Part shown: positions 6,705-47,644 of the stretch, piece after piece | Position numbering within the stretch: position 1 is the first letter of the stretch | Layout of the letters: every line of letters begins with the position of its first letter | Origin: Thermodesulfovibrio sp. | GTDB taxonomy: Bacteria > Nitrospirota > Thermodesulfovibrionia > UBA6902 | NCBI GenBank assembly: GCA_026982355.1 | Contig: JALSHG010000077.1 | Location: forward strand, 1 to 55,654 | Length of the DNA: 55,654 bases | Direction: 5' to 3' | Made by a program: the position numbers and the translations under genes | Notes under the pieces: model-generated | Told to the model about the DNA's origin: nothing | Seen by the model: only the letters and a program-made list of their open reading frames with translations | The model's database searches: none

Positions 6705-6713
6705 GCGGGAGAT

Positions 6714-6739: not shown

Positions 6740-6752
6740 TTAGGAGGTTGAA

Positions 6753-11507: not shown

Positions 11508-11561
11508 CTTTTCCGCCGGACTCTCCCTCCCGCGGGCGGTGTTTTTATGCCGCTGTAAGGT
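11508..11561. repeat. Dispersed palindromic element, half copy
   Basis: Begins one base after the NuoE-like stop. AGCTTTTCCGCC...GCGGGCGGTGTTTTTATGCC...TGTAAGGT is the reverse complement of the first 55 bp of the 215-bp copies at 31.6 and 46.4 kb. It lies inside an operon. Confidence 0.75.
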
Positions 11562-11587
11562 ACATTAAAATATCAAAAGGTGAAGAT

Positions 11588-13930: not shown

Positions 13931-13939
13931 GGGTTGGCC

Positions 13940-14533: not shown

Positions 14534-14631
14534 GCAAGAGCGTATTGCATACGCACTTGCGGAATTGAAATAAATTTCGAAACGGCGGCGGGGGTCTCCC
14601 TGTTTCCGGATATGATAGACAGGAGGAGCAG

Positions 14632-30889: not shown

Positions 30890-31533
30890 CAGACTACTTC
30901 TACTTCAGCAGGCTCGATTATCCCGGGGTCGCGATTATCCGGCAACCTGGGAAGACTCATTGCCGACACGCGCCACCCGCTGTGCCTGAGGATGCCTTTA
31001 AACGGCGGGGAACCCGTGACGTTTCCCGTAAGGCGGACAGCCGAGGGGTCGAATCCCTCGCCGACCGTCACCCCGCTCCCCTCGCTCTCCTTCATCACCG
31101 GCTCAATGGTGACATGCTCCAGCAGGACCTCGCGGCAGCCCTTGTGTATGTTTCTCACGGCAGCGCCGATCCGGCTGTCCTCATAACCGCTTATATCCTC
31201 CTGCAGGAAATCGATCAGGCGTCCCTTTTTCTGCAGGAGCGACAGCACCTGCACGGCCTTTTCATCAAACGGCCTTTCCGCAGGCGGCGGAGGGGCCGTT
31301 GTCTCCGGCGTTTCTTCCTTTGCCTCAACGGCGGGGGCGGGGATTTTACCTCCAAGTGCATATACCGCAACCGTCAGTATCAGGGAAAGGACGACGCCGG
31401 CGGCAATGAACGCCGGCAGCATGTATGACGGCGGGACCCGGGCCTCAAGAACAGGCAGACCGTAAAAAAGACCGGTCATAAAGCCCGTCGTGATGATGAA
31501 TACTGCTATCGAGATCTTTAATTTAAATGACAT
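30889..31533 (-). CDS. DUF2760 membrane protein
   Basis: 214 residues. Two N-terminal transmembrane helices (about residues 6-26 and 40-60) are followed by a Pro/Glu linker, then a conserved soluble domain of about 130 residues (AVQVLSLLQKKGRLIDFLQEDI, DSRIGAAVRNIHKGCREVL, GFDPSAVRLTGNV, FKGILRHSGWR). It probably anchors the Hsp70-like partners at the membrane; that role is inferred from the fixed gene neighbourhood. GAGGAG precedes the ATG. A 215-bp repeat lies 78 bp upstream. Confidence 0.82.
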   Translation of the reverse strand: MSFKLKISIAVFIITTGFMTGLFYGLPVLEARVPPSYMLPAFIAAGVVLSLILTVAVYALGGKIPAPAVEAKEETPETTAPPPPAERPFDEKAVQVLSLLQKKGRLIDFLQEDISGYEDSRIGAAVRNIHKGCREVLLEHVTIEPVMKESEGSGVTVGEGFDPSAVRLTGNVTGSPPFKGILRHSGWRVSAMSLPRLPDNRDPGIIEPAEVEVV

Positions 31534-32225: not shown

Positions 32226-34712
32226 CTACAGCGCCCTCTCGATCTTCACCGCAACAGCGGGCGCCCCGCCGTTTAAAGACAGCCTCGTAAGGTTGTTTAT
32301 CTTTGCATGCGGGAAATGGGCGGGCACGAATGCCGTGCCGGGGGGGACATCACCCGATATCCTGGCCTTTATGTAAACCGTGCCCCTCCTCGAGGTAGCC
32401 CTGACATAGCTGTTGTCGGAAATGCCGTATTTCCTGCCGTCCTCTTCGCTTATCTCAAGCAGCGCCTCGGAGACGACGAGGTCGAGCGAGTTGGACCTTG
32501 CCGACATACTGCCCGAATGCTGGAGTATATCCCTTACGGCAAGACGCAGGGGATATTCGGCGTCGGGCTCTTCATCCACGCTGTAGGCGACGGGATTGAA
32601 CGCAGGCTTGGGCGCCTCCTCCCCGGGCGTGAGACCCGGCAGTGAATTTATCTCTTCGGAGATGCCCGCCAGGTTTTTGACCTTCAGGTCATTTCCCATG
32701 GAAAGCGCAAGGTTCCTCAGTATCCGCCAGTCAGGCAGCGACTGGCCCGTGGGATCGACCACCTTGTATGTCTTCTGCATGATTCCGGCGGCGCTGGTAA
32801 GTGTGCCGTCCTTCTCCCCCCAGCTTGAGGCGGGCAGGACCACATGCGCCAGTTTCGCAGTGTCTGTAAGCGCTATGTCCTGCACTATCAGGAAGTCCAG
32901 CGCCTTCAGCCTGCCGGCCACCTTCGCGCTGTCGGGAAAGGTTATGACCGGGTCCTCGCCCATGATGTAGAGGGCATTGAGCGAGCCCGGCTCATACAGC
33001 ATCTCCTGCACGCCCTTGCCGGGCTTTTCAACAGGCGCGTACCCCGGTCCCGCATCCGGGTTTACGCCCATCAGGTAAGCGCCGAAGGTGTTTGAGTATT
33101 CCGCGGGTATCTGCAGGGCGTCCGGCCCGTCCCCCAGCAGGATGATCAGGTCAGCCGCGGCAAGCACGGTGTTAAGGCTGTTGGTGTTTTCGGATATGCC
33201 GAGCGACAGGGAAAGCATCCTGTTTTCAGCGCGTGCAAATGTCTCTGCAGCGGTTATGATCTCCTGCTCGCTTATCCCGGTGATGCCCGAGACCTTCGCT
33301 GTGGTGTAGTCCTCAAGCAATGCCTCGAGAGAGTCGAACCCCGGTATCTTCGAGACCTTTTCCCTGTCGAAGAGTCCCCTGTCGATCACCGCCTTCATTA
33401 TCCCGTTGATAAAGGCGACTCCGGTGCCCTGTTTTATCCTGAGCCGCTGCGTGCCGTGCCTCGTCAGTTTCGTGTCCCTGCTGTCGGCCACGATAAGCTG
33501 CGCGCCTTCCCTCTTCGCCCGGAGGATATTGATGCCGAAGATGGGATGCGTGACGCTCAGGTCGGACTCGACAATCAGGATGACATCCCTGCCGAGGGGC
33601 GATCTTATGTCCATGCCGCGGCTCTTCATGCCGAATGCCGCCTCCCATGCCTTCTGCACCCTTGCATGGCCGAAGGCGGCGGATGAGTCTATATTGCCGG
33701 AGCCGATGATATCCCTCATGAACTTCTGCAGCATGTAGTTGTCTTCATTGGTGCACCTCGGGGAGCCGAGGGCGCCGATTGAGTCCGGGCCGTGGGCGTC
33801 GATGATGGAACGGATGTTCTTGGCGATGTGGTTCAGGGCCTCATCCCACGGCACGGGCATGAGCTCGTCCTCTATTCTTATCATCGGTGTCCTGAGGCGG
33901 TTTTCACTGTAAATGTAGTCAAAGCCGAACCTCCCCCTTCCGCAGAGGTTGCCGTCGTTTATGCCCGCGCCTTCCCTGCCCCTTGAGCGCATGATCTCAC
34001 CTTCCCGGATCCCGAGGGTGAGGGTGCAGCCGCAGCCGCAGAACGGGCATATGGTGTCCTTTTCATCCAGAAACCAGGCGCGTCCCTTGAACTTGTACGG
34101 TTTGCTCAGGATCGCGCCGGTGGGGCATATGTCGATGCACTGGCCGCAGAAATCGCATTCCAGTATCTCCCCGAAGGCGGGCTGCACCACTGTGGGGAAT
34201 CCCCTGCCGATCAGGCCCAGCGCGCCCCTGCCCTGGTGCTCTTCGCATATCCTCACGCACTTGCCGCAGAGTATGCACCTGTTTGAGCTTAACTCTATCA
34301 GCGGGCTCCTGACATCAGAGGTCACTTCTTTCCTCGGCCTCCTGAACCTTGCCTCGGGCTTGCCGTATTCATAGGCCAGGTCCTGGAGCGCGCACTCGCC
34401 CGCCTTGTCGCACACAGGACAGTCAAGCGGATGATGAACCAGGAGGAACTCCAGCACGGTCTGCCTGAGCTTCCTGAGCTTGGGGGTGTCCGTGTTCACC
34501 ACCATTCCGTTCTCAGCGGGGCTCGAACATGCCGCGAAGAGCCTTCTCTGGCCCTCGACCTCGACTATGCACATCCTGCATGAGCCGTAAGGCGTGAGCC
34601 TCTTGTCATAGCACAGGTTGGGTATCTTTATTCCGTTTGCCAGCGCAGCCTGGAGAATAGTGCTGCCTTCTTCAGTTGTGATCCGTTTGCCGTTTATTGT
34701 TAACTCTATCAT
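32226..34712 (-). CDS. NuoG/FdhA-like iron-sulfur subunit, copy 1, without catalytic Cys/Sec
   Basis: 828 residues: [2Fe-2S] (C34, C45, C48, C62), His-Cys3 cluster (H94, C98, C101, C107), two [4Fe-4S] clusters (CILCGKCVRIC, CDFCGQCIDIC), then a complete molybdopterin-type oxidoreductase with its own [4Fe-4S] site (CPFCGCGC, and NLCGRGRFGFDY). The overall plan is that of NAD-linked formate dehydrogenases, but where these have Cys or Sec before His (CARVUH-type) this protein has SAAFGH, so Gly replaces the metal ligand. It is probably an electron carrier or acts on an unknown substrate. Its ATG overlaps the NuoF stop by 4 bp. It is about 60 percent alike to copy 2 by eye. Confidence 0.85.
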   Translation of the reverse strand: MIELTINGKRITTEEGSTILQAALANGIKIPNLCYDKRLTPYGSCRMCIVEVEGQRRLFAACSSPAENGMVVNTDTPKLRKLRQTVLEFLLVHHPLDCPVCDKAGECALQDLAYEYGKPEARFRRPRKEVTSDVRSPLIELSSNRCILCGKCVRICEEHQGRGALGLIGRGFPTVVQPAFGEILECDFCGQCIDICPTGAILSKPYKFKGRAWFLDEKDTICPFCGCGCTLTLGIREGEIMRSRGREGAGINDGNLCGRGRFGFDYIYSENRLRTPMIRIEDELMPVPWDEALNHIAKNIRSIIDAHGPDSIGALGSPRCTNEDNYMLQKFMRDIIGSGNIDSSAAFGHARVQKAWEAAFGMKSRGMDIRSPLGRDVILIVESDLSVTHPIFGINILRAKREGAQLIVADSRDTKLTRHGTQRLRIKQGTGVAFINGIMKAVIDRGLFDREKVSKIPGFDSLEALLEDYTTAKVSGITGISEQEIITAAETFARAENRMLSLSLGISENTNSLNTVLAAADLIILLGDGPDALQIPAEYSNTFGAYLMGVNPDAGPGYAPVEKPGKGVQEMLYEPGSLNALYIMGEDPVITFPDSAKVAGRLKALDFLIVQDIALTDTAKLAHVVLPASSWGEKDGTLTSAAGIMQKTYKVVDPTGQSLPDWRILRNLALSMGNDLKVKNLAGISEEINSLPGLTPGEEAPKPAFNPVAYSVDEEPDAEYPLRLAVRDILQHSGSMSARSNSLDLVVSEALLEISEEDGRKYGISDNSYVRATSRRGTVYIKARISGDVPPGTAFVPAHFPHAKINNLTRLSLNGGAPAVAVKIERAL

Positions 34713-36586
34713 TCTGCCGCTCCTTTTCCTGATTTTGCCGCTGCCGCCGTTTCCACCAGTTCCGACGGTTCACCCTCGAAACCGGCGGGTAGAACTTTTA
34801 TGGAGTTGAATTTGCAGGTATCGTAACAGCTTCTGCAGCGAACGCAGAGATCCTGTATTATCCGGTGTGGTTTTTTCTTCTCCCCTACAATTGCCTTTGA
34901 CGGGCATCCCCTCAGGCACGCGCCGCAGCCCTTGCAGAGTTCCTCGATTATATGGAATGAACAGAGCTCGCGGCATATGCCGGCCTTGCACCATCTGTCT
35001 TTTATATGGGACTCGTATTCATCCCTGAAGTATCTTATCGTGGTGAGCACGGGATTCGGGGCCGTCTGCCCCAGGCCGCAGAGGGATGTTGCTATGATGT
35101 CGTGGGAGAGGTCCTCGAGGGTCTCTATGTCCCCTTCCTTTCCGCGACCCTCGGAGATATCGGTCAGTATGTCGAGCATTATCTTGGTGCCCACCCTGCA
35201 GGGGGGGCACTTGCCGCATGACTCCTCGGCCGTGAATTCAAGGAAGAACTTCGCCATGCCGACCATGCAGTTGTTGTTGTCCATGACGACCATCCCGCCG
35301 GAGCCCATGATGGCGCCGGTCTTGACCACGTCTTCGTATGTGACGGGGATGTCTATGAGGCTCTCCGGGATGCAGCCGCCGGAAGGGCCGCCCATCTGCA
35401 CGGCCTTGAATTTTCTGCCCCTGCCCTTGATGCCGCCCCCTATGTCGTTTATGATGGTCCTGAGCGGAATGCCCATCGGAACCTCCACAAGACCGACGTT
35501 GTTCACCGCGCCGGTCAGGGCAAAGACCTTTGTGCCCGGGCTTTTCTCTGTGCCGAGGTTCCTGTACCACTCCGCGCCGTGCAGGATGATCGGGGAGATG
35601 TTCGCGAGAGTCTCGACATTGTTGAGCACGGAGGGTTTCTCCCAAAGGCCCTTGTGGGCCGGGAAGGGGGGCCTCGGCCTCGGCATTCCGCGCTTCCCTT
35701 CGATGGAGCGCATGAGCGCCGTCTCTTCACCGCAGACGAATGCGCCTGCGCCGAGGTATATCTCGAGGTTGAAGTCAAAGCCGCTGTCCAGGATGTTCTT
35801 GCCCAGAAGCCCTGCCTCGGTGGCCGCGTCTATGGCCATCTGGAGCCTCTTGACCGCCAGCGGATACTCTGCCCTCACATAGATATAGCCCATGTTTGCG
35901 CCGATGGCCCTTGCGCCTATGATCATGCCCTCGATAACGGCATGAGGGTCGGCCTCCATGATGGACCTGTCCATGAATGCGCCGGGGTCTCCCTCGTCAC
36001 CGTTGCAGAGCATGAATTTCGTGCCGGACTGCACCTTTGCGCAGAATTCCCACTTGAGCCCCGTCGGGAAGCCGGCGCCGCCCCTGCCCCTGATGCCGGA
36101 GTCCTTTACGACCTTTATTATCTCCCCGGGGGTCATCTCCGTCAGGGCCTTTGCAGCCGCCATGTAGCCGTCCCTGGCAATGTATTCCTCTATCTTTTCG
36201 GGGTCGATGAGCCCCTTGTTCCTGAGAGCCCTGAGAACCTGGTGCTTGAAGAACGGTATTTCGCTCATCACGGGGATGGCCTTTCTCTTCGCGGGCATTT
36301 TATACATGAGCTTCTGCACGGGTCTTCCCTTTACAAAATGTTCTTCCACGAGATGGGGTATGTCCTCGGGCCGCAGCTTCTGGTAGAATATCTCGTCGGG
36401 ATACACCGCAATCACGGGACCACCCGCGCACAGGCCGTTGCATCCCGTAAGCACGATGCCGATTTCCTTTTCAAGCGACCTCTTCTTCAGTTCATCCTCA
36501 ATGGCTTCCTTTATCTTCAGCGACCCGGCGGATACGCAACCCGTTCCTGCACATACCATAAGACTGACACGCTGTTGCTCGGACAT
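34709..36586 (-). CDS. NuoF/HydB-like NAD(P)H-binding flavoprotein subunit, copy 1
   Basis: 625 residues. Thioredoxin-like [2Fe-2S] domain (CAGTGC, TGCNGLC), FMN/NADH domain (SGIRGRGGAGFPTG, NGDEGDPGAFMDRSIME), SLBB, [4Fe-4S] site (ESCGKCPPCRVGT, SLCGLGQTAPNP) and a C-terminal 2x[4Fe-4S] ferredoxin (CKGCGACLRGC, CVRCRSCYDTC). It is the NAD(P)H entry or exit subunit, as in HydB of bifurcating hydrogenases. GGAGG precedes the ATG. Translationally coupled to NuoG copy 1, and close to the copy-2 pair upstream, which shows a tandem duplication. Confidence 0.9.
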   Translation of the reverse strand: MSEQQRVSLMVCAGTGCVSAGSLKIKEAIEDELKKRSLEKEIGIVLTGCNGLCAGGPVIAVYPDEIFYQKLRPEDIPHLVEEHFVKGRPVQKLMYKMPAKRKAIPVMSEIPFFKHQVLRALRNKGLIDPEKIEEYIARDGYMAAAKALTEMTPGEIIKVVKDSGIRGRGGAGFPTGLKWEFCAKVQSGTKFMLCNGDEGDPGAFMDRSIMEADPHAVIEGMIIGARAIGANMGYIYVRAEYPLAVKRLQMAIDAATEAGLLGKNILDSGFDFNLEIYLGAGAFVCGEETALMRSIEGKRGMPRPRPPFPAHKGLWEKPSVLNNVETLANISPIILHGAEWYRNLGTEKSPGTKVFALTGAVNNVGLVEVPMGIPLRTIINDIGGGIKGRGRKFKAVQMGGPSGGCIPESLIDIPVTYEDVVKTGAIMGSGGMVVMDNNNCMVGMAKFFLEFTAEESCGKCPPCRVGTKIMLDILTDISEGRGKEGDIETLEDLSHDIIATSLCGLGQTAPNPVLTTIRYFRDEYESHIKDRWCKAGICRELCSFHIIEELCKGCGACLRGCPSKAIVGEKKKPHRIIQDLCVRCRSCYDTCKFNSIKVLPAGFEGEPSELVETAAAAKSGKGAAE

Positions 36587-36607
36587 AATGTTGTAAACCT
36601 CCTGCTG

Positions 36608-39073
36608 TTATTTTACTCTTTCAATCTTCACTGCATCCAGACGGCTGCATGTATTTCCGGAAAAGTGTGTAAGCTCATTTATACCTCCCGAGGGGAAATG
36701 AACCGGCGTGGAGACCACTCCCTCCGGCACTGCGTCCGTGACCTTTGCCCTCAGGTATACGGCCCCCCTCCTCGAGGTGATCTTTATATGGCTTTCATCG
36801 GATATCGCATGTCTTTCAGCATCTTTTTCATTTATCTCAAGGAATGCCTCGGCCTGCACGAGCTTCAGGGCCTCGGACCTCGTGGACATGTTGCCGGAGT
36901 GCTGTAGCACGTCCCTTGTAACGAGGGTGTAAGTGAACTCGCTGTCACAGGGCTCTTCAGGCTCGTACGCAACCGGATGAAATGCAGGTCTCGGCGCGCC
37001 CTCCGCTTCCCTGCGGCCGCCTGCGATAAAGTCATCCGCCTCTTTCGTAATGTCCTGAAAACTCTTTGCGCCGAGGTTTATCCCCATGGCCAGCCCGAGG
37101 TTTCTCAGTATCTGCCAGTCGGGCTGGCTCTTGCCTGTTGCCTCGACCACTTTGCGGATTCTCTGCCTGAGTCCCCCGGCGTTGATGAAGTGTCCCTCTT
37201 TTTCCCCCCAGCTGCTGGCAGGCAGCACCACGTTTGCCAGTTCGGCCGCCTCTGTCATGACTATGTCCTGGACAACGAGGAAGTCAAGGGACCGGAGTGT
37301 GTTCTTTATCTTTCTCGAGTCGGGCATGCTGACCAGCGGGTCTTCGCCCATGATATAGAGCGCCCTGAGATGGCCGGGCTTATACAGCATGTCGAATACG
37401 TCCATGCCGCCCCCGCGGGGCATGATGCCCGCCTCAAGCATGCCATAGGTATTGCAGTACTCCGCCGGCACCTGCAGGGATGAAGGCTCCTCCCCGAGCA
37501 GTATGAGCAGATTGGCTGCCGCAAGCGCCGAGCCGGGGCCCTTGTTGTTCTCGGACACGGCAAGGGGCATGATTACAAGCCTCCTCGGTGCGTTTGCAAA
37601 TGTAACGGCCGCATCAGTGACCGCCTCTCCCGTCAGCCCGGTGATCTCGGATACCATTGCCGGCGTATACTCCTTCACCACTGCCTCGAGCGAGGAAAAT
37701 CCCCTGATGCCCGAGACCCTGTCCCTGTCAAAAAGACCCCTGTCCATTATTACGTTCATCATGCCGTTTAAAAGGGCCACCAGTGTGCCCGGCCTCAGCT
37801 GAAGCCAGGTATTGCTGTGCCTCGTGAGCTTTGTCTCCCTGTAGTCCGCCACCAGCAGCCTGGAGCCCTCCCTCTTTGCCCTGAGTATGTTGAGCCCGAA
37901 GACCGGATGTGTAATGGTGGGGTCGGATTCAAGCACGAGTATCACGTCCCTGCCCAGAGGGGATGCGAGGTCCGCAGGATTGCTCCCGATCCCGAAGGAG
38001 AGGGAAAATGCCCTCAGGGCGCCGGCATAGCCGAATGCCTCGGAGGAGGCTATGTTGCCGCTCCCCAGCCCTGCGCGCATGAATTTCGCGAGCATGTAAT
38101 TGTCCTCGACCGTGCACCTCGGCGAGCCTATTGCACCGATGGAGTTCGGGCCGTGCGCGTCCCTGATCGAGCTGAGGCTCCTGGCCACGTATGTCAGGGC
38201 CTCTTCCCATGAGGCGTCCCTGAATTCATCACCCTCTTTTATAAGTGGCGTCCTGAGGCGGTTTTCACTGTAGATGTAGTCAAAACCGAACCTGCCCCTG
38301 CCGCAGAGGTTGCCGTCGTTTATGCCCGCGCCTTCCCTGCCCTTTGAGCGCAGTATCCGCCCTTCCCTGATCCCCAGTGTCAGGGTGCATCCAACGCCGC
38401 AGAAAGAGCAGATGTTCTCTTTTTCTTCAAGAAACCACGGCCTTGCCTTGTATTTGTAGGGCTTGCTGATCAGTGCGCCTGTGGGGCATATGTCGATGCA
38501 CTGGCCGCAGTAGTCGCATTCAAGCACCTCGCCGAAGGCGGGCTGCACCACGGTGGGGAACCCCCTGCCGATCAGGCCCAGCGCGCCCCTGCCCTGATAC
38601 TGTGAGCATATCCTCACGCACTTGGCGCACAGGATGCACCTGTTTGAAATAAGCTCGATCAGCGGGCCCCTTACATCAGGCTGCGCGTGTTTCCTTTCAC
38701 CTGTAAACCGCGTCTCGGGCACGCCGTACTCAAAGACAAGGTCCTGCAGCGCGCACTCCCCGGCCTTGTCGCACTCGGGGCAGTCAAGGGGGTGGTGAAC
38801 GAGGAGAAATTCCAGCACGGACTGGCGGACCCTCCTGACCCTCGGGGAGTTTGTCTTTATAACCATTCCCTCCCTGGCGGGATGTCCGCAGGCAGAGGCA
38901 AGCTTCCTGCCTCCTTCTATCTCGACGACACACATCCTGCACCCCCCGTAGGGCCTGAGTCTCTTGTCAAAACACAGGTTGGGTATCTTTATGCCGTTGC
39001 GCCTCGCTGCCTCAAGGATGGTGATACCTTTCTCTACGGATAGTTTCCTGTCATCTATGGTTATCTCTATCAT
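36608..39073 (-). CDS. NuoG/FdhA-like iron-sulfur subunit, copy 2, without catalytic Cys/Sec
   Basis: 821 residues with the same cluster plan as copy 1 (C34, C45, C48, C62; HHPLDCPECDKAGEC; CILCAKCVRIC; CDYCGQCIDIC; CSFCGVGC). At the formate dehydrogenase active-site position it reads SEAFGY: both the Cys/Sec and the conserved His are lost, a further step than in copy 1. The rest of the molybdopterin fold is kept to the C-terminus (SHIKITSRRGAVYLRAK). It probably has a structural or electron-transfer role. The start has GGAGGG upstream and follows NuoF copy 2 by 47 bp. Confidence 0.85.
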   Translation of the reverse strand: MIEITIDDRKLSVEKGITILEAARRNGIKIPNLCFDKRLRPYGGCRMCVVEIEGGRKLASACGHPAREGMVIKTNSPRVRRVRQSVLEFLLVHHPLDCPECDKAGECALQDLVFEYGVPETRFTGERKHAQPDVRGPLIELISNRCILCAKCVRICSQYQGRGALGLIGRGFPTVVQPAFGEVLECDYCGQCIDICPTGALISKPYKYKARPWFLEEKENICSFCGVGCTLTLGIREGRILRSKGREGAGINDGNLCGRGRFGFDYIYSENRLRTPLIKEGDEFRDASWEEALTYVARSLSSIRDAHGPNSIGAIGSPRCTVEDNYMLAKFMRAGLGSGNIASSEAFGYAGALRAFSLSFGIGSNPADLASPLGRDVILVLESDPTITHPVFGLNILRAKREGSRLLVADYRETKLTRHSNTWLQLRPGTLVALLNGMMNVIMDRGLFDRDRVSGIRGFSSLEAVVKEYTPAMVSEITGLTGEAVTDAAVTFANAPRRLVIMPLAVSENNKGPGSALAAANLLILLGEEPSSLQVPAEYCNTYGMLEAGIMPRGGGMDVFDMLYKPGHLRALYIMGEDPLVSMPDSRKIKNTLRSLDFLVVQDIVMTEAAELANVVLPASSWGEKEGHFINAGGLRQRIRKVVEATGKSQPDWQILRNLGLAMGINLGAKSFQDITKEADDFIAGGRREAEGAPRPAFHPVAYEPEEPCDSEFTYTLVTRDVLQHSGNMSTRSEALKLVQAEAFLEINEKDAERHAISDESHIKITSRRGAVYLRAKVTDAVPEGVVSTPVHFPSGGINELTHFSGNTCSRLDAVKIERVK

Positions 39074-39120
39074 TCCGCTCCCTCCGGTATATTTTTCAAT
39101 ATGCCTGATTACGCCGGTCG

Positions 39121-40965
39121 TTATTCCTCAAGCAGCGCCATCGGGTCGCCCTTGTAATCGGCGGGTCCGATTATTATTGATTTGAACCTGCACGTATCGT
39201 AACAGGTCCTGCACTGTATGCACACCTCCTGGATGATGCGGTGTGGTTTCTTCTTTTCGCCGATGATCGCCTTTGACGGACATGCCCTCATGCATGCCCC
39301 GCATCCCGTGCAGACCTTTTCGTTTATGAAAAATGTGGTGAGCTTGCGGCAGACGCCCACCTTGCACCATTTATCCTTTATGTGGGACTCGTACTCGTCC
39401 CGGAAATACTGTATAGTTGTGAGCACGGGGTTGGGAGCCGACTGCCCGAGGCCGCAGAGCGAACCTTCGATGATGTCGTATGAGAGCTCTTCGAGTATCT
39501 CTATGTCTCCCTCCTTGCCGCGGCCCTCTGCAAGGTCGTTGAGCTTGTCGAGCATTATCTTTGTTCCCACCCTGCACGGGGGGCACTTGCCGCATGATTC
39601 GTCGGTGGTGAACTCAAGGAAAAACTTCGCCATGCCCACCATGCAGTTGGTGTTGTCCATGAACACCATGCCGCCCGAGCCCATTATGGCCCCTGTCTTC
39701 TGAATGTCCTCGAATGTCACGGGCGTGTCGATCAGGCTCTCGGGTATGCAGCCGCCGGAAGGGCCGCCCATCTGCACGGCCTTGAACTTTCTCCCCCTTC
39801 TGGCGCCCGGCACGCCGCCGCCTATGTCGTAGATGATCTGCCTTATGGTCATGCCCATGGGAACTTCGACCAGTCCGGTGTTGTTGATTGCGCCGGTAAG
39901 CGAGAAGACCTTTGTGCCCGTGCTCTTTTCAGTGCCGAGGCTCTTGAACCAGTCCGCGCCGTTCAGGATGATCTGGGGTATTGCCGCGAGGGTCTCGACA
40001 TTATTAAGCACCGTCGGCTTTCCCCACAGTCCCGACTCCGTGGAGCGGGGAGGGGTCAGCCTCGGCATGCCCCGCCTGCCTTCGATGGAGAACATGAGCG
40101 CGGTCGACTCGCCGCAGACAAAAGCACCCGCCCCCTGGTATATCTCAAGGTCGAAGTCAAAGCCGCTGTCCAGGATGTTTTTGCCCAGAAGCCCCGCCTC
40201 GGTGGCCGCGTCTATGGCCAGTTGCAGGCGATGGACCGCCAGGGGATACTCCGCCCTTACATATATATAACCCTTGCTCGCGCCGATGGCCTTTGCGCCT
40301 ATGATCATGCCCTCGATAACGGCATGTGGGTCGGCCTCCATGATGGACCGGTCCATGAATGCGCCGGGGTCTCCCTCGTCGCCGTTGCAGCACATGTACT
40401 TCCGGTCCGAAACCATCCTCGCGCAGGATTCCCATTTAACGCCGGTGGGAAAGCCGGCGCCGCCCCTGCCCCTGATGCCCGAGTCCTTTACGACCTCTAT
40501 TATTTCCCGGGGGGTCATCTCCGTGACGGCCTTTGCAGAGGCGAGATAACCGTCCCGTGTGATGTAATCCTCTATCTTTTCGGGATCGATGATTCCTTTA
40601 TTCCTCAGCACCCTGAGCACCTGGTGTTTGAAAAACGGTATCTCGTGCATGCTCGGAATGGTGAGCTTCCCGGTGGGCTCCTTGTACATGAATTTTTCAA
40701 CGGGCCTGCCCTTGACGAAGTGCTCCTCGACCAGGTACGGCACGTCCTCAACCTGTATCTTTTCGTAGAATATTTCATCAGGATGGACCGTGATTATCGG
40801 CCCCTGGGCGCAAAAGCCGTTGCAGCCTGTCAGGACCACGTCTATCTCGTTTTCAAGCCCCCTCTTTTTCAGTTCTTTCTCAAAGGCTTCCTTGACCTTG
40901 AGGGACTTGGTCGCCACACAACCACTTCCTGCGCATACCATTAAGTTCGCACGAAATCTTCCCAT
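39121..40965 (-). CDS. NuoF/HydB-like NAD(P)H-binding flavoprotein subunit, copy 2
   Basis: 614 residues with the same domain order as copy 1: CAGSGC and TGCNGFC in the [2Fe-2S] domain, GRGGAGFPTG and NGDEGDPGAFMD in the FMN/NADH domain, ESCGKCPPCRVGT, and a ferredoxin end (CTGCGACMRAC, CIQCRTCYDTC). AAGGAG precedes the ATG. It is the upstream member of the tandem NuoF-NuoG pairs and lies just after the HndB-like gene, which suggests NuoE (receiver fusion)-HndB-NuoF-NuoG form one complex. Confidence 0.9.
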   Translation of the reverse strand: MGRFRANLMVCAGSGCVATKSLKVKEAFEKELKKRGLENEIDVVLTGCNGFCAQGPIITVHPDEIFYEKIQVEDVPYLVEEHFVKGRPVEKFMYKEPTGKLTIPSMHEIPFFKHQVLRVLRNKGIIDPEKIEDYITRDGYLASAKAVTEMTPREIIEVVKDSGIRGRGGAGFPTGVKWESCARMVSDRKYMCCNGDEGDPGAFMDRSIMEADPHAVIEGMIIGAKAIGASKGYIYVRAEYPLAVHRLQLAIDAATEAGLLGKNILDSGFDFDLEIYQGAGAFVCGESTALMFSIEGRRGMPRLTPPRSTESGLWGKPTVLNNVETLAAIPQIILNGADWFKSLGTEKSTGTKVFSLTGAINNTGLVEVPMGMTIRQIIYDIGGGVPGARRGRKFKAVQMGGPSGGCIPESLIDTPVTFEDIQKTGAIMGSGGMVFMDNTNCMVGMAKFFLEFTTDESCGKCPPCRVGTKIMLDKLNDLAEGRGKEGDIEILEELSYDIIEGSLCGLGQSAPNPVLTTIQYFRDEYESHIKDKWCKVGVCRKLTTFFINEKVCTGCGACMRACPSKAIIGEKKKPHRIIQEVCIQCRTCYDTCRFKSIIIGPADYKGDPMALLEE

Positions 40966-41025
40966 CCCTGTCTCCTTTTTTTTTCAGTGCCGGCGCCGCG
41001 CTGCCGGTCTCTGCAGACGGATTGA

Positions 41026-41093
41026 ACCTTACCAGTAGCATAAAAACACCCCCGGCGGGCAGGAGAGCCTGCCGGTTTATGCAACATTAAGGT
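41026..41093. repeat. Dispersed element, 68-bp copy inside the redox operon
   Basis: Ends ACCTTACCAGTAGCATAAAA and GTTTATGCAACATTAAGGT, with inner arms GGCAGG and CCTGCC. It lies between NuoF copy 2 and the HndB-like gene. Confidence 0.85.
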
Positions 41094-41113
41094 GAACGTT
41101 GACCGGCACTTTT

Positions 41114-41497
41114 TTAATACGTTGTTTCGCTTCCGACAACCATGGCGTATTTCTCAACCACGTTGCCCTTGAGGATATGCTCGTCGAATATCTCTTTTAT
41201 CTTTTTTTCGTTAAGCTCGACGTATTTGACCGGAGGGCCGCCCGCTATCTCCACGGTCGCCATGGGCTCCCTGCTGCACAGGCCCGCACAGCCGGACGTG
41301 GTGACGATCACATCCTTGACGTCGGCCTTTGCCATCTCGTCCATCAGGGCGGTCATAATCGTCCGTGCGCCCGCTGCTATACCGCATGTTCCCATATGAA
41401 CCGTGACCTTCGCCCTGTAGCCGCCTTCCCTGACGGCAAAGGTCGCCTTGTGCTGCTCCTTGATTTTCTTTAAGTCATCTATCGTGAGTCTCGGCAT
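41114..41497 (-). CDS. HndB-like thioredoxin-fold [2Fe-2S] protein
   Basis: 127 residues, like HndB of NADP-reducing hydrogenases: HMGTCGIAAGARTIM, then VTTSGCAGLCSREPMATVEI. Cysteines are C38, C70 and C74; the family typically shows this incomplete first pair. It likely carries electrons next to the NuoF-like subunits. GGGGGA lies upstream of the ATG. It sits between the receiver-NuoE fusion and NuoF copy 2. Confidence 0.85.
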   Translation of the reverse strand: MPRLTIDDLKKIKEQHKATFAVREGGYRAKVTVHMGTCGIAAGARTIMTALMDEMAKADVKDVIVTTSGCAGLCSREPMATVEIAGGPPVKYVELNEKKIKEIFDEHILKGNVVEKYAMVVGSETTY

Positions 41498-41529
41498 TTT
41501 ATTCCCCCTTCCGTGTTTTACGTGGGTTG

Positions 41530-42420
41530 TCAGGCCTTTGCCCCCACTGTCCTGTATTCATCAATAATCTGCATTACTTTCTTGGGAGTCACCGCGCTGT
41601 GGGTATCATGGTCAATGACCATGACCGGCGCAAGGCCGCAGGCGCCGAGGCAGCGCACGGCCTCGAGTGAGAATTTCCTGTCCTCTGTTATCTCACCGAC
41701 GCCGATATGCAGGTTCTCCTTTATCTTGTCCAGCACTTCATCAATGCCCTTTACATAGCATGCAGTGCCGAGGCAGACCTTGATGATATGGTCGCCGCGG
41801 GGCTGCATGGTGAAGAACGAGTAAAAAGACACCACGCCGTGGACCTCGGCCGCGGGTATGTTCAGCCCCTTTGATATCCGTTTCTGCACAATGGGCGGGA
41901 GGTATCCCACTATCTCCTGTGCCCTCTGCAGGACCGGTATAAGGCTGCCCGGCTTGTCCCTGTAACTGCTTATCATCCTGTCCAGCTCGGCCATCATGGA
42001 GGGCGGAAACTCTTCCTCTTTTTTCTTTGCCTCGGCAGGGACGCTCTTCTGCTTCCACTCTATGGCCCTGGCGACAACGTCCATCAACACCACGGGGGTA
42101 AATGGCTTGGGAACATAGTCTATGATCCCGAGTTCAAGCGCATCCTTGATCGTCTCCTGCGAGGGATACCCGGTGATGATGAGAACACCCGTCTCCGGCC
42201 TTGATTTCTTTATCCACTTTATGAGGGTTATGCCGTCCACCTCCGGCATCTTGAGGTCGGTAATAACAAAGTCGTACGGCTTTTGCTCCATTGCAATTAT
42301 AGCCTCTCTCCCGCCCGAGGCCCCGTCAATGTTGTATCCTTCAGCCTCAAGAATTCTCTTGCAGCTTTTTATCACCACAGGCTCGTCATCCACCACCAGG
42401 ATTTTGATGTCATCAGCCAT
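41530..42420 (-). CDS. Response-regulator receiver domain fused to NuoE-type [2Fe-2S] subunit
   Basis: 296 residues. The N-terminal receiver (1-125) is intact: acidic D11 and D12, phospho-acceptor D55, T83, and K105-P106. A short charged linker follows, then a full NuoE domain (residues 140-296) with helical start LVLQRAQEIVGYLP-like and [2Fe-2S] ligands C216, C221, C257 and C261. Receiver domains normally control output by phosphorylation, and here the output is an electron-transfer subunit. AAGGAGGG precedes the ATG. It lies in the operon with a HATPase protein and a second receiver protein. Phospho-control of electron flow is inference. Confidence 0.9.
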   Translation of the reverse strand: MADDIKILVVDDEPVVIKSCKRILEAEGYNIDGASGGREAIIAMEQKPYDFVITDLKMPEVDGITLIKWIKKSRPETGVLIITGYPSQETIKDALELGIIDYVPKPFTPVVLMDVVARAIEWKQKSVPAEAKKKEEEFPPSMMAELDRMISSYRDKPGSLIPVLQRAQEIVGYLPPIVQKRISKGLNIPAAEVHGVVSFYSFFTMQPRGDHIIKVCLGTACYVKGIDEVLDKIKENLHIGVGEITEDRKFSLEAVRCLGACGLAPVMVIDHDTHSAVTPKKVMQIIDEYRTVGAKA

Positions 42421-42470
42421 CAGCAGACCCTCCTTTATGTTTAACTTGAGTAATTAACATTATTCCACAC

Positions 42471-42510
42471 ACTTACGCATAAAAATGCCGGGGTTATGCA
42501 ACATTAAAGT
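42471..42510. repeat. Dispersed element, minimal 40-bp copy
   Basis: ACTTACGCATAAAAATGCC then GGGGTTATGCAACATTAAAGT: two ends almost joined. It lies between NfnB and the receiver-NuoE gene. Confidence 0.7.
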
Positions 42511-42589
42511 TCGCAAGCAACCCTCCACTCAGCTTGAAAGGAGTCTCACCCTTTCGGTTTAAGGGCGGAGGGGCATCAAACAACCGGCA

Positions 42590-44038
42590 TTACTGCTCTA
42601 TAAAACCGCTGACATCCCAGTATTTCCATTTAAGATATCCGTTTATCGCCCTTGCCACTTTTTTGCCGGCGCCCATTGCCAGGATAACCGTTGCAGCGCC
42701 CGTGACTATATCGCCCCCGGCGAACACGCCCCTCTTGGATGTCATGCCGGTCTCTTCCTCAGCGATTATATAACCCCTCCTGTTCAGTCTGAGGTCGGGC
42801 AGGGTTTTCAGCAGGAGCGGATTCGCCTTTGCGCCGAGCGCGGGGATGGCCACGTCTATCTCCATTTCAAACTCGCTGCCCTCCACGGGAACCGGCCGTC
42901 TCCTGCCGCTTTCATCAGGCTCTCCAAGCTCCATCCTTATGCATTCAACCGCGCGAAGATTCCCGTTGCCGTCATCAAGGAACCTCACGGGATTGGTCAG
43001 GAGCACGAACTCCACGCCCTCTTCCTTTGCATGGTGTATCTCCGCCTTCCTCGCGGGCATCTCGGCCTCTGAACGCCGGTAGACAAGGTACACCTTCTCC
43101 GCCCCGAGCCGCAGTGCAACCCTTGCGGAGTCCATTGCCACGTTGCCTGCCCCGAACACGGCAACCCTCCCGGGCCTCTTTATGGGCGTGTCGTATTCAG
43201 GGAAGAGATATGCCTTCATCAGGTTGGCCCTTGTCAGGAATTCATTGGCGGAGTAGACACCGTTGAAGTTTTCCCCGGGTATGCCGAGGAACATGGGCAG
43301 CCCCGCCCCTGTGGCGATAAAGCATGCATCATAGCCTTTTTCATTCAGTAGTTCATCCACGGTAAAGAGCCTGCCGATCACGGCATTGGTCACTACCTCG
43401 ACTCCTAATTTTCTTATGTAGCCGACTTCCCTCTCCACGATCACCTTCGGCAGCCTGAACTCCGGTATGCCGTAGACCAGCACTCCTCCGGGCTTGTGCA
43501 ATGCCTCGAACATGGTAACCTCGTGGCCGGACATTATAAGGTCCGAGGCGCATGTCAGGCCGCCGGGGCCCGAGCCTATGATGGCGACCTTCCTGCCCGT
43601 GGCACGGGGTTTCTCCGGTATCCTGACCTCGCCTTTTTCAGCCTCGTAATCAGCAGCGAACCTCTCGAGGTTGCCTATGGCAACGGGATCGCCCTTTTTG
43701 CCCACGATACAGCGGGCTTCGCACTGGTTTTCCTGCGGGCATACCCTTCCGCATACAGCGGGCAGGGCGTTTTTCTGTTTGATCGTATAGCATGCCTCAA
43801 GGAAATTCCCTTCCTTGATAAGTCTGATGAACTGCGGTATCTCAACCTCCACGGGGCAGCCTTCCCTGCACGGAGGATTTTTGCATGAAAGGCATCTTGA
43901 TGCCTCCTCCACCGCTTCCTCAGGGGTGTATCCGAAAGGGACCTCCCTGAAATTCCGGGCCCTTTCCGCGGGCTCCTGCTCCTTCATCCTTACCCTGGTT
44001 TTTGTCTTTTTGTCCTGTTTTTCAGGTTCTGTTCCCAT
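42590..44038 (-). CDS. nfnB: NfnB-type (large) subunit of bifurcating ferredoxin:NADP oxidoreductase
   Basis: 482 residues of the glutamate-synthase-small-chain family. Two [4Fe-4S] sites lie in CLSCKNPPCREGCPVEV and CGRVCPQENQCEARC. The FAD-binding motif GSGPGGLTCASDL and the NADPH-binding motif GAGNVAMDSARVALRLGA follow, and it ends GGDIVTGAATVILAMGAGKKVA. With NfnA it couples NADPH with NADH and ferredoxin by flavin-based electron bifurcation. nfnA lies immediately upstream with a one-base gap, which separates this from a stand-alone GltD. GGGGGTG precedes the ATG. Confidence 0.9.
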   Translation of the reverse strand: MGTEPEKQDKKTKTRVRMKEQEPAERARNFREVPFGYTPEEAVEEASRCLSCKNPPCREGCPVEVEIPQFIRLIKEGNFLEACYTIKQKNALPAVCGRVCPQENQCEARCIVGKKGDPVAIGNLERFAADYEAEKGEVRIPEKPRATGRKVAIIGSGPGGLTCASDLIMSGHEVTMFEALHKPGGVLVYGIPEFRLPKVIVEREVGYIRKLGVEVVTNAVIGRLFTVDELLNEKGYDACFIATGAGLPMFLGIPGENFNGVYSANEFLTRANLMKAYLFPEYDTPIKRPGRVAVFGAGNVAMDSARVALRLGAEKVYLVYRRSEAEMPARKAEIHHAKEEGVEFVLLTNPVRFLDDGNGNLRAVECIRMELGEPDESGRRRPVPVEGSEFEMEIDVAIPALGAKANPLLLKTLPDLRLNRRGYIIAEEETGMTSKRGVFAGGDIVTGAATVILAMGAGKKVARAINGYLKWKYWDVSGFIEQ

Positions 44039-44039
44039 G

Positions 44040-44873
44040 TCACCCCCCTAACGCCGCCTTGTATCTCTCGAAGGCCGTTCTTTCTTCGTCAAGATACATT
44101 TTCTGTCTTTCCATGAGCAGGTCGAAGTCGACCTTATGTCCGTCAAAGTCCGGACCGTCCACGCAGCAGAACTTTGTCTCACCCCCGACCTCCACCCTGC
44201 AACCGCCGCACATCCCTGTGCCGTCGATCATGATCGAGTTCAGGCTGACCACGGTCTTTACATTGTATTTCTCCGTTGTCTTGCAGACGAATTTCATCAT
44301 TATGGCGGGGCCGATGGCGATCACCAGCTTTATGTCGGTGTGCTCCTTCAGGAGCTCTTCAAGGGGAATGGTCACAACTGCCTTTCTGCCGCAGGAGCCG
44401 TCATCCGTTGTGACGATCAGCTCGTCCGAGACCTGCCGCATCCTGTCCTCCCAGAACAGGAGGGACTTCGTCCTTGCGCCTATGATTGAAAAGACATGAT
44501 TGCCGGCATGCTTCAACGCCCTTGCTATGGGATAAACGGGAGCTATACCCACACCCCCGCCGACGCATACCACCTTTCCGAAATTCTCTATGTGGGAATT
44601 GATGCCGAGGGGGCCTATCACGTCGGATATGAAATCCCCTTCATTTAGTGTTCCGAGGTGATGAGTGGTCTTGCCTACCTTCTGGAAGACGGTGGTCAGG
44701 GTTCCTCTCTCCCTGTCGAAGTCCGCTATGGTCAGCGGGATTCTCTCCCCTTCCTCGTGTATCCTGAGGACGATGAAATTGCCGGGCTCCGCTTTTTTTG
44801 CAATGTCTTTTGCGTCGATTTCAAACAGGGTTATATTCTCCGACAACTCCTGTTTTTTTAGAATTTCAAACAT
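44040..44873 (-). CDS. nfnA: NfnA-type (small) subunit, FAD/[2Fe-2S]
   Basis: 277 residues of the ferredoxin-NADP reductase type: FAD-binding barrel (ENITLFEIDA, RIPLTIADFDRE), NAD-binding fold (VCVGGGVGIAPVYPIARALK), and a C-terminal [2Fe-2S] segment GMCGGCRVEV, FCCVDGPDFDGH. Typical length is about 280. Together with NfnB it forms the bifurcating enzyme; a sulfide dehydrogenase role is the known alternative for this pair. GGGAGGG precedes the ATG. Confidence 0.9.
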   Translation of the reverse strand: MFEILKKQELSENITLFEIDAKDIAKKAEPGNFIVLRIHEEGERIPLTIADFDRERGTLTTVFQKVGKTTHHLGTLNEGDFISDVIGPLGINSHIENFGKVVCVGGGVGIAPVYPIARALKHAGNHVFSIIGARTKSLLFWEDRMRQVSDELIVTTDDGSCGRKAVVTIPLEELLKEHTDIKLVIAIGPAIMMKFVCKTTEKYNVKTVVSLNSIMIDGTGMCGGCRVEVGGETKFCCVDGPDFDGHKVDFDLLMERQKMYLDEERTAFERYKAALGG

Positions 44874-44932
44874 GATTCCCTCCCCCCGCTGTGTCTGTTA
44901 TTGTTTCTGTCAGGGATTGGTTATTATCCGGC

Positions 44933-45700
44933 TCACGTCTCCAAAGGGAATACCCTTGCCAGCCATAACAACCAGCCCTCCGAGAGATGTTCCTTGAGTA
45001 AAGCGGCCATAACATCGTTCGCCTTGGTATTGATCTCCCTCAGCTCGGCATTCATGGGTGAAAGCAGGTCGCTTCCCTGTCCGCTGCTCGAATATATTCT
45101 CGCAAAAGGCTGGCCGGCCTTGAGTTTGTCTATGCCCTTTATGAATTCAACATACATGAGGTTGCCCGTCAGAAGCCAGTACCTGAGGTCGCAGCCCATT
45201 TCCCATAGCCCGTTTTTCGTCGGTCTTGCCCACGTGCCTTCCTTGTAGAAGATAACGGGATTTTCCTTGTCCCTGAGGGAAACCACGGAGTCCCTGAATT
45301 CATCGATGAAGGCCTGCCTGAGTATCCATCCCCTCTTGTCGAATATCTTTTTTGCGACATTGATCATGAACTCGGGTGTAAACGGTTTTTCGAGGTACTG
45401 CTCCGCTCCGAGCCTTGTCGACTCCTTTGCATCCTCAAGGGTGGGATAGCCTGTAATCATGACGACATCGGTGCCGGGTTTGATTATCCGCGCCTCCTTG
45501 AGCACGGTCATTCCGCTTATATCGGGGAGCCTTATATCGGAAATCAGCAGGTCAAAGTCTTCCTTTGCCAGTTTATTGAGGGCGTCTTCTCCTTTCTCAA
45601 CGGTCGAGATGCTGTAGCCTTCGGCGCCGAGAATCCTCTTGCAGCTTAATGTTACAACAGGGTCGTCATCAAGTATTAAAATCTTCCCCTTTTTTTCCAT
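44933..45700 (-). CDS. Response-regulator receiver domain fused to a GcvH-like domain
   Basis: 255 residues from the ATG at 45700, which has GGAGGG upstream; a GTG at 45706 lies too close to that site. The receiver domain (about 1-120) is complete, with D55 as phospho-acceptor and K105-P106. Residues about 153-253 look like glycine cleavage H protein: GLWEMGCDLRYWLLTGNLMYV, DKLKAGQPFARI, DLLSPMNAELREIN and GWLLWLARVF. The lipoylated lysine of GcvH is replaced by Gly207, so no lipoyl group is expected. The domain may be a docking module for a redox partner. It lies between the HATPase and nfnA. Confidence 0.82.
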   Translation of the reverse strand: MEKKGKILILDDDPVVTLSCKRILGAEGYSISTVEKGEDALNKLAKEDFDLLISDIRLPDISGMTVLKEARIIKPGTDVVMITGYPTLEDAKESTRLGAEQYLEKPFTPEFMINVAKKIFDKRGWILRQAFIDEFRDSVVSLRDKENPVIFYKEGTWARPTKNGLWEMGCDLRYWLLTGNLMYVEFIKGIDKLKAGQPFARIYSSSGQGSDLLSPMNAELREINTKANDVMAALLKEHLSEGWLLWLARVFPLET

Positions 45701-45831
45701 ATACACCCTCCTTATAAACCGGCCGCGGAGTGCGAGTTTTCACAATAGACCGTAGTACGGAACTCGTAACACGCAACGCAGGTATAAAAAATGTAAATTT
45801 ATATGTTAAGTTCTTGCATTGATGTTGAACG

Positions 45832-46383
45832 TTATTCTATCATATTACCTGTACTATTTAGCCACGTACTTATATCGTCTTTAATAATTTTTATCACCTC
45901 GGGTGTGGTTACGGGCACACCGTCCAGTTCCCTTTTTATTTCAGATGTATCCAGAAGATATGTCCTGCCGTTTCTCTCATGTTCGAATATGAAATCGATA
46001 TCAGGGTTGGAGGCGATAAGCACGGCCATGGTCTGCGCGATATCACCAAGGGGTTTTCTGTCTATGTGGTCATAGCGGAAGGTGGCGGTGACGGTGGTGC
46101 CCTTTCCCTCTTCGGTCTTTATATCTATATCTCCCATGCTTTCCCTTGCGGCCTGCGCGAGCAGGGGGATCCCCATGCCCACCCGTCTTGTGGTCCTCGT
46201 GGTATGGAAAGGATCGCGGGCATGTTCCAGCATTTCCCTGTCCATGCCCCTGCCGTTGTCGGATATCTCTAAAAGGAGAAGATTCTTTTTGATATCCTCA
46301 ACTATCCTTATCTTTATCCTGTCCGCGCCCGCTGTTATCGAGTTTTCCGCGATGTCGAGAATGTGCAGCGATAAGTCTTCCAT
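45832..46383 (-). CDS. Lone histidine-kinase-type ATPase domain protein
   Basis: 183 residues from the ATG at 46383; the longer open frame upstream lies in repeat DNA. A single HATPase_c domain: N-box LDIAENSITAGADRI, G1 box DNGRGMD, G2 box GMGIPLLAQAA, and GKGTTVTATF. It has no sensor, no H-box and no dimerisation domain. The C-terminal 60 residues are unfamiliar. Such proteins sit beside bifurcating hydrogenase genes in some anaerobes. Here it heads an operon with two receiver fusions, making it a candidate kinase, anti-factor or allosteric partner for them. Confidence 0.85.
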   Translation of the reverse strand: MEDLSLHILDIAENSITAGADRIKIRIVEDIKKNLLLLEISDNGRGMDREMLEHARDPFHTTRTTRRVGMGIPLLAQAARESMGDIDIKTEEGKGTTVTATFRYDHIDRKPLGDIAQTMAVLIASNPDIDFIFEHERNGRTYLLDTSEIKRELDGVPVTTPEVIKIIKDDISTWLNSTGNMIE

Positions 46384-46777: not shown

Positions 46778-46910
46778 TCTAAGCAAGAACGCGGGGGGCA
46801 TTCTTTATTCATTCCTGAATTTTAAACTGATGTTGCATGAAGAGGCCGGTGCATGTACCGGCCCGGAGGGAATTATCCTGCCGTGAGGCTGAAAAGCGCC
46901 TCTATACATC

Positions 46911-46993
46911 AATGCGGCATAAACGTGCAGGGAAGCCCGCCGGGCCCCCCGCACTCTCCTGCACGCGGGCGGTGTTTTATGCAACTGTTCAGT
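46911..46993. repeat. Dispersed element, about 83-bp copy before the NarL-type gene
   Basis: AATGCGGCATAAACGTGCAG at the left, GGCGGTGTTTTATGCAACTG at the right, GC-rich arms between. It ends 21 bp before the regulator ATG. Confidence 0.7.
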
Positions 46994-47014
46994 GACGGAA
47001 GGGGAAAGACGGTG

Positions 47015-47644
47015 ATGAGAATACTCGTAGCCGATGACCATGCACTTGTCAGGGAAGGTCTCAGGCGGATTCTGTCGGAGATGCCGGATGTCATTGCCGT
47101 TGATGAGGCTGCCGCCGGCCAGGAAGTCCTGCGGAAAGCCTGGGAGAGGGATTACGACGTAATCCTGCTGGACATCTCCATGCCGGGCAGGAGCGGACTG
47201 GATGTATTGAAACAACTGAGAAACGACAAGCCGTCACTTAAAATCCTGATGCTGAGCATGCATCCCGAAGACCACTATGCCGTGCGCGCAATAAAGGCCG
47301 GCGCATACGGATACCTGACAAAGGGAAGCAATGCGGATGAACTGCTTGATGCCGTGCGGAAAGTCGCCTCCGGCAGGAAATACATCAGTCCCTCGCTTGC
47401 CGAAACCCTCGCCTGTCACATGGAGAACGGTTCAGGGAAACTGCTGCACGAGACACTCTCGGACCGCGAGTTTGAGGTGATGTGCATGATCGCCTCGGGA
47501 AAGACGGTGAAGGAGATCGCCTCGGAGCTGTCGCTGAGCGTCAAGACCATCAGCACCTACCGTACCCGCATCCTGTGCAAGATGGGCATGAAGAACAACG
47601 CGCAGCTGACACATTACACGATACAGAACCGGCTGCTGGGCTGA
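47015..47644 (+). CDS. NarL/FixJ-type response regulator with LuxR helix-turn-helix
   Basis: 209 residues from the ATG at 47015; the open frame further upstream lies in repeat DNA. Receiver domain with D7/D8, phospho-acceptor D53 and lysine in GYLTKGS, then a LuxR-type DNA-binding domain (LSDREFEVMCMIASGKTVKEIA, SVKTISTYRTRI). No cognate sensor kinase is adjacent. The lone HATPase protein and the redox operon are divergent neighbours, so the gene may regulate them, but this is only positional. Confidence 0.92.
   Translation: MRILVADDHALVREGLRRILSEMPDVIAVDEAAAGQEVLRKAWERDYDVILLDISMPGRSGLDVLKQLRNDKPSLKILMLSMHPEDHYAVRAIKAGAYGYLTKGSNADELLDAVRKVASGRKYISPSLAETLACHMENGSGKLLHETLSDREFEVMCMIASGKTVKEIASELSLSVKTISTYRTRILCKMGMKNNAQLTHYTIQNRLLG

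Follow-up and report, generated by a model that had tools for sequence, protein, structure and literature searches.

Receiver fusions to NuoE and a GcvH-like domain: predicted two-component control of a HydABC/Bfu-type redox complex in Thermodesulfovibrionia

Background

Can the sharing of electrons by a flavin-based bifurcating enzyme be set directly by a phosphorylation switch carried on one of its own subunits? To our knowledge, discussion of how such bifurcation is controlled has dealt with substrates, redox state and gene expression. The question is raised by an operon on a contig of Thermodesulfovibrio sp. (Nitrospirota, Thermodesulfovibrionia; assembly GCA_026982355.1, contig JALSHG010000077.1, here C77), all 55,654 nucleotides of which are termed the window below; the genome comprises 2.6 Mb in 119 contigs and is given as 100% complete. 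The operon, at positions 32226-46383 on the minus strand, encodes fusions of a receiver domain to the [2Fe-2S] subunit NuoE (RR-NuoE) and to a GcvH-like domain (RR-GcvH), along with two NuoF-NuoG pairs and a lone HATPase. An earlier note drawn from the DNA letters had read it as an electron-bifurcation operon gated by phosphorylation, with the lone HATPase as a possible kinase-like partner. The bifurcating-type complex, as defined by sequence, and the conserved, phosphorylatable-looking receivers of that reading stand, whereas the HATPase as kinase partner does not. We regard it as probable, with real room for doubt, that the product of the operon is an NADH-ferredoxin complex of HydABC/Bfu type, directly controlled by a two-component sensor kinase encoded on another contig, C12.

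Results

Both NuoF proteins align over nearly their full length to HydB of solved bifurcating hydrogenases and, with numbering transferred from 7t2r through alignment, keep the B1-B5 ligands, among them C438, H525, C531, C536 and four N-terminal and eight C-terminal cysteines. At position 476, where Cys or Thr is usual and almost every long relative has Thr, NuoF1 carries Ala and NuoF2 Ser. The ligand histidine alone does not discriminate, because the complex I NuoF sequences of this analysis have the same residue. Pfam scans recovered the domains of BfuB (FMN, SLBB, NADH_4Fe-4S and 4Fe-4S) and the NuoE domain of BfuC, the Pfam counterparts of the defining InterPro domains; the SLBB match of NuoF2 is weak (21.0 against a cut-off of 27). 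The NuoE-NuoF-NuoG set agrees with the HydABC/Bfu bifurcating family as that family is defined by sequence, and bifurcation itself is predicted.

Possible partners of the complex were sought and rejected. The H-cluster domain PF02906 (Fe_hyd_lg_C) had no match in the whole genome, which argues against a bifurcating [FeFe]-hydrogenase or any other H-cluster partner. NuoG resembles FdsA, and its Mo-ligand Cys is replaced by Gly in both window copies and in 31/31 relatives; the following His has become Tyr or Phe in NuoG1 and 30 of these relatives and is kept in NuoG2 and one relative. An active formate dehydrogenase (FdsA/FdhF) is rejected because of this loss of the Mo-ligand Cys/Sec. A molybdenum cofactor may still be bound, as an FdhD-family gene lies downstream of NuoG in four loci (L052, L076, L068, L069), one member being identified as FdhD. 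Nine genes downstream of the operon in relatives yielded no recognisable third-substrate subunit, and this candidate too was set aside: one is FdhD, one a PAS-GAF protein, one has no match and the rest are unrelated housekeeping genes or weak matches. Four loci (L040, L042, L043, L050) have no HndB-like protein and show replacement of the first two of the four N-terminal [2Fe-2S] cysteines of NuoF (HGCC), which suggests a linked loss; other loci without HndB, however, keep these cysteines intact.

Conservation of the gene set in other genomes, the check on which the earlier note had staked its reading, was surveyed in 230 genomes of the class with E limits of 1e-40 (RR-NuoE), 1e-45 (RR-GcvH), 1e-25 (lone HATPase) and 1e-15 (kinase sensor), and the set is conserved. 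RR-NuoE was matched in 160 genomes (some matches being the NuoE part alone or fragments), RR-GcvH in 131, both in 126 and the lone HATPase in 125. RR-GcvH occupies the contig and strand of RR-NuoE in 117 of the 123 places in genomes with an RR-NuoE place among the matches listed, lying less than 500 bases upstream of it in 101 and about 2-2.5 kb away in 16; this count leaves out an RR-GcvH fragment (G331:C209) and nine RR-GcvH places in genomes for which no RR-NuoE place was listed. Since it is matched and syntenic across the class, the architecture is not a chance arrangement. The 34 loci with a full RR-NuoE include NuoF (32), NuoG (32), HndB (24), the lone HATPase (17), a lone receiver (14), a kinase (12) and an NtrC-like regulator (4). 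NfnA and NfnB, present in the window operon, occurred in none of the 40 loci of one sample and recur in G322, G320, G271, G272, G260, G329, G340 and G339, which carry three family labels including that of the window and come from a further set selected for a wide gap or close kinship. There is a second NuoF in G322, G271, G329 and G340 and a single NuoF-NuoG pair in G260; the contig is cut in G320, G272 and G339. With its inserted NfnA-NfnB and its two NuoF-NuoG pairs, the window operon represents a minority variant. The fusion may be confined to Nitrospirota: full-length receiver-NuoE fusions occur in 6/80 loci of a wider scan, among the matches listed (five titled Nitrospirae/Thermodesulfovibrionales and one 'Bacterium BMS3Bbin05'), and in a phylum search of 198 genomes the nine matching genomes outside the class have the NuoE part only.

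The fused receivers retain the acidic pair, phosphoacceptor Asp, Thr/Ser and Lys of response regulators. D11, D12, D55, T83 and K105 are all kept in 31/35 RR-NuoE proteins, and D13-D15, D57, T85 and K107 in 21/21 RR-GcvH receivers; the D55 and K105 that the earlier note had assigned to both fusions agree with this if RR-GcvH is numbered from the Met at codon 3. When 59 further RR-NuoE sequences are added to the 35 (94 in all, leaving out G182, whose open reading frame has no receiver), the phospho-site (acidic pair, Asp and Lys) is intact in 86/86 sequences from genomes with a match to the kinase sensor and in 5/8 from those without (Fisher p 0.0004, phylogeny ignored). The alpha-1 helix of receivers contributes to kinase recognition, and an SCxRxLxxEG-type alpha-1 pattern, sought in a somewhat looser form, occurs in just three of 70 own receivers examined (the genome has 71): the lone receiver of contig C12, RR-NuoE and RR-GcvH, which are also mutual best matches within that set. 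The motif varies in relatives, where a looser form fits 70/75. A tree of 117 receivers, made by a quick method from few columns and with each kind represented by no more than 14 (50 of the 78 system receivers, including the genome's three), places 49/50 system receivers on one branch (SH-aLRT 98) that holds none of the 67 other receivers of the genome; REC_L065 falls outside it. These observations support a tie between the receivers and a two-component kinase by ancestry and synteny, with phosphorylation as a prediction. A third kind of fusion, at L048:7331-8182 (+), joins a receiver of the same clade to a weak HATPase_c_2 match below the cut-off.

The kinase in question lies on C12, where complex I genes are divergent from a run of histidine kinase (HK), lone receiver (REC), DRTGG, HATPase_c_2, DRTGG and PHP genes, the domains having been called on the L039 orthologues. 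It is a membrane protein with HAMP, HisKA and HATPase domains, and the adjoining receiver is the close relative of the fusions described above. In G328 the run continues unbroken as HK-REC-DRTGG-HATPase_c_2-DRTGG-PHP-HATPase-RR-GcvH-RR-NuoE-HndB-NuoF-NuoG, and in G271 the order is HK-REC-RR-GcvH-NfnA-NfnB-RR-NuoE-HndB-NuoF-NuoG-NuoF-NuoG, the window order from RR-GcvH on directly following HK-REC without the lone HATPase. Because these two genomes join the kinase run to the operon, the window operon appears to be the downstream half of a single ancestral locus. The sensor region was matched in 148/160 genomes with RR-NuoE and 126/131 with RR-GcvH. It carries CxxCH in 11/13 proteins and a second C-x4-CH, likewise in 11/13, and its structural model resembles Cache-type sensors, with WalK as the best match (E 5.9e-6); a sequence search against the PDB found nothing significant. 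The CxxCH motif and the model together suggest that the sensor is Cache-like and probably bears c-type haem.

Several observations weigh against control by this kinase. Its sensor has no match in 12/160 RR-NuoE genomes; the 172/230 class genomes in which it was matched may include paralogous kinases, and its co-occurrence with the receiver fusions is confounded by phylogeny. Broken receivers are limited to two lineages (G142 and G170 of one genus, and G172), so few natural cases pair a degenerate receiver with absence of the kinase, and five of the eight sequences from kinase-less genomes are intact, although two of the five (G320, G335) come from genomes only 78% and 84% complete. The sensor model was built from three sequences and is of moderate confidence (mean pLDDT 62.7); the haem sensor GSU0935 is a poor match to it (rank 10, E 4.7e-4, rmsd 14.3), WalK, DcuS and CitA, which match it best, are presumably not haem sensors, and Pfam called no sensor domain in the region and gave no PF11845 match. 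RR-GcvH was matched without RR-NuoE in five genomes, most clearly in G004 (100% complete), and may for this reason have an additional role. In G004 an HK-REC-RR-GcvH group precedes hrcA-grpE-dnaK-dnaJ.

Within the operon, the kinase-like partner proposed earlier, the lone HATPase, stands upstream of both fusions, and it is matched in 118/160 RR-NuoE genomes. Pfam nevertheless matched only HATPase domains in it and no HisKA/DHp domain, and G271 has the whole fusion operon with no lone HATPase found by genome search or by reading of the locus. Among the matches listed in the 80 loci of the wider scan, blast homologues of the HATPase occur in 38, 34 of which have no receiver-NuoE fusion, and homologues of PHP, DRTGG and HATPase_c_2 occur in 32, 35 and 29. 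The fusion-less HATPase loci include Bacillota, Desulfobacterota, Thermotogae and one Nitrospirae record; one Spirochaetes locus has PHP, DRTGG and HATPase_c_2 without the lone HATPase. Genomes without a match number 42/160 for the HATPase against 12/160 for the kinase sensor, at differing E-value limits, and there is an alternative kinase that has HisKA and is accompanied by a sister receiver. That the lone HATPase phosphorylates the receivers is thus very improbable: it is a HydABC/Bfu accessory and not the likely kinase, and the HAMP-HisKA-HATPase protein is, by its domains and its sister receiver, the better candidate. Across phyla, genes of the NuoE/NuoF type have DRTGG, HATPase_c_2, PHP and HATPase genes as repeated neighbours (e.g. 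L100, L141, L121), and no paper on the function of this cassette was among the entries listed by the literature search. As its homologues adjoin plain NuoE in other phyla, the cassette is probably older than the receiver fusions.

The GCV_H match of RR-GcvH is just over the Pfam cut-off (22.4 against 22.2 bits), and a profile of 16 GcvH-like domains retrieved H-proteins from the PDB (best E 9.7e-8). An AlphaFold model of RR-GcvH has a mean pLDDT of 80.8; the 50 rows shown of a fold search with it contain receiver matches only and are uninformative about the GcvH fold, so the assignment rests on sequence profiles. The position of the lipoyl Lys is Gly in 16/16 domains, by which a lipoylated H protein of glycine cleavage is rejected. 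The domain appears to be a structural or binding module rather than a lipoyl carrier, and RR-GcvH is probably a phospho-dependent adaptor. The missing lipoyl lysine also fits a different explanation, under which the fused receivers do not gate catalysis and could be docking modules that tether the complex to the kinase or complex I, or phosphate sinks tuning the lone receiver and the NtrC-like regulator. The latter two belong to the same receiver family (the regulator in 4/34 loci), and in several loci the kinase has complex I genes next to it in divergent orientation. Yet a sink needs no fusion to NuoE and a GcvH-like domain, the fusions are kept in most genomes having them and the Asp/Thr/Lys residues are maintained; this explanation seems to us unlikely, though not negligible.

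It is also conceivable that the complex is itself the sensor, its redox state being read through the receivers to the kinase, which would set transcription through NtrC-like regulators. The presence of such regulators in the receiver clade (in the same four loci) would suit this. The kinase, however, has its own, mostly CxxCH-bearing sensor region, no NtrC-like member of the clade is found among the 70 own receivers examined, and sigma-54-like sites show no excess in the window (11 matches against 13.85 expected), on which ground sigma-54 promoters were rejected. This possibility we judge quite improbable.

Gene content of the window

The ten same-strand genes and domains listed by the earlier note are confirmed by the open reading frames and by Pfam and NCBIfam scans (Table 1). 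For the lone HATPase the ATG at 46383 was taken as the start, in line with most of the aligned relatives; a longer GTG frame reaches 46509. The HndB-like protein has no Pfam match and scored far below the cut-off of the NCBIfam 2Fe-2S ferredoxin model NF041612.

Table 1. Features of the operon in the window
Feature	Coordinates	Strand	Basis and remarks
Lone HATPase (GHKL ATPase), C-terminal extension	45832..46383	-	Pfam HATPase_c; no HisKA match
RR-GcvH	44933..45706	-	Response_reg 45359-45682; GcvH-like domain about 44963-45247
NfnA-type FAD/NAD-binding protein	44040..44873	-	Pfam; NCBIfam NF004862 over cut-off
NfnB / GltD-type protein	42590..44038	-	Pfam; NCBIfam TIGR01316 over cut-off
RR-NuoE	41530..42420	-	Receiver 42073-42402, linker, NuoE [2Fe-2S] domain (2Fe-2S_thioredx) 41551-41982
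RR-NuoE phospho-residues	D55 codon 42256-42258; K105 codon 42106-42108	-	
HndB-like [2Fe-2S] protein, 127 aa	41114..41497	-	ORF list, NCBIfam, relatives' loci
NuoF1, BfuB/HydB type	39121..40965	-	N-terminal [2Fe-2S], FMN domain, C-terminal two-[4Fe-4S] domain; Ala at B2 ligand position 476
NuoG1, BfuA-like, degenerate formate-dehydrogenase domain	36608..39073	-	Gly-Tyr in place of Cys-His
NuoF2, BfuB/HydB type	34709..36586	-	Ser at position 476
NuoG2, same type as NuoG1	32226..34712	-	Gly-His at Mo-ligand motif

Divergent from the operon, at 46853-47644 (+), is a NarL-type response regulator that lies outside the system receiver clade. Just downstream, 26223-31533 (-) encodes a DUF2760 protein and a pair of divergent Hsp70-like proteins, of which one contains DUF3731. 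The region 4749-16647 (+) holds CODH/ACS genes followed by a second NuoE, a NuoF fused to CBS domains, an Fe-S protein and NuoG, and this set is likely a CODH-linked Bfu-type complex.

Relation to known systems

As in the Desulfovibrio-type Hnd enzyme (HndABCD), a small [2Fe-2S] protein resembling HndB stands between NuoE and NuoF in the window operon, which in contrast has no HndD hydrogenase and bears a receiver fusion. With the HydABC/Bfu family (PMC9304861) the operon shares the NuoE-NuoF-NuoG gene set, the N-terminal [2Fe-2S] and C-terminal two-[4Fe-4S] domains of NuoF, NuoE and the N-terminal cluster domains of NuoG; it differs in the receiver on NuoE, the missing H-cluster, the degenerate formate-dehydrogenase domain of NuoG and the linked kinase. 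Nfn-Bfu or Sporomusa-type Nfn (PMC9304861; PDB 9n5u, with chains titled NfnA/B/C) also combines Nfn with NuoE/F-like parts, whereas NfnA and NfnB are here separate genes of a minority variant. The nearest precedent found is Rv3143 of mycobacteria, a receiver protein proposed in PMC9274095 to act on an NADH dehydrogenase and not on DNA. Rv3143 is a separate protein binding NuoD of complex I, for which that paper reports that no kinase was found; in contrast, the present receiver is covalently fused to NuoE of a bifurcating-type enzyme and has a linked kinase. A two-component feedback loop with an Fe-S-binding receiver (PMC7078487) likewise links a receiver to Fe-S chemistry, and there, going by the title, the receiver itself binds the cluster. 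PMC12889525 describes sCache_heme as a Cache-type extracytoplasmic CxxCH sensor found in histidine kinases and enriched in Nitrospirota among others; the kinase sensor here differs by its extra C-x4-CH motif and by matching no PF11845. Each part is known. The literature searched, which included few subscription papers, yielded no receiver joined to NuoE of a bifurcating-type enzyme and linked to a kinase, and neither a receiver-NuoE fusion nor phospho-control of bifurcation came up in it.

Proposed mechanism and its significance

The Bfu mechanism places a switch at the C1 cluster in BfuC (PMC9304861), and the HydC cluster is judged important (PMC9499530). C1, carried by NuoE (BfuC/HydC), is proposed to move and by doing so to divert electrons to one or the other of the two branches, NADH and ferredoxin. 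Building on this, we propose tentatively that a haem-bearing sensor kinase gates NADH/ferredoxin sharing through the NuoE-fused receiver, with RR-GcvH as an adaptor whose GcvH-like domain is dead; this fuller scheme we hold to be possible, somewhat short of an even chance. The membrane kinase, encoded beside complex I and equipped with a Cache-like, probably c-haem periplasmic sensor, would detect a signal, for which periplasmic redox state or a haem ligand is a candidate, and would phosphorylate three sister receivers: the neighbouring lone receiver and those of RR-NuoE and RR-GcvH. Phosphorylation of the NuoE-fused receiver may change the docking or mobility of NuoE, and the altered NuoE-NuoF coupling would activate the enzyme, shut it down or shift it from one mode to another, so that traffic between NADH and ferredoxin is adjusted to how oxidised or reduced the quinone or cytochrome pool is. 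One point of geometry speaks against this scheme: the moving part of BfuC is, according to the literature, its C-terminal domain, whereas the fused receiver is N-terminal.

If correct, gating of NADH/ferredoxin sharing through RR-NuoE would amount to a novel form of control over a central enzyme of energy metabolism, exerted by a signalling switch on a subunit proposed to move. A two-component output domain is here fused to a subunit proposed as part of the bifurcation switch, with a candidate kinase and a candidate signal, and the post-translational regulation of bifurcation would become a question of phosphotransfer and kinetics. The finding also brings into view the DRTGG/PHP/HATPase cassette, which in several phyla is found repeatedly next to genes of HydABC/Bfu type.

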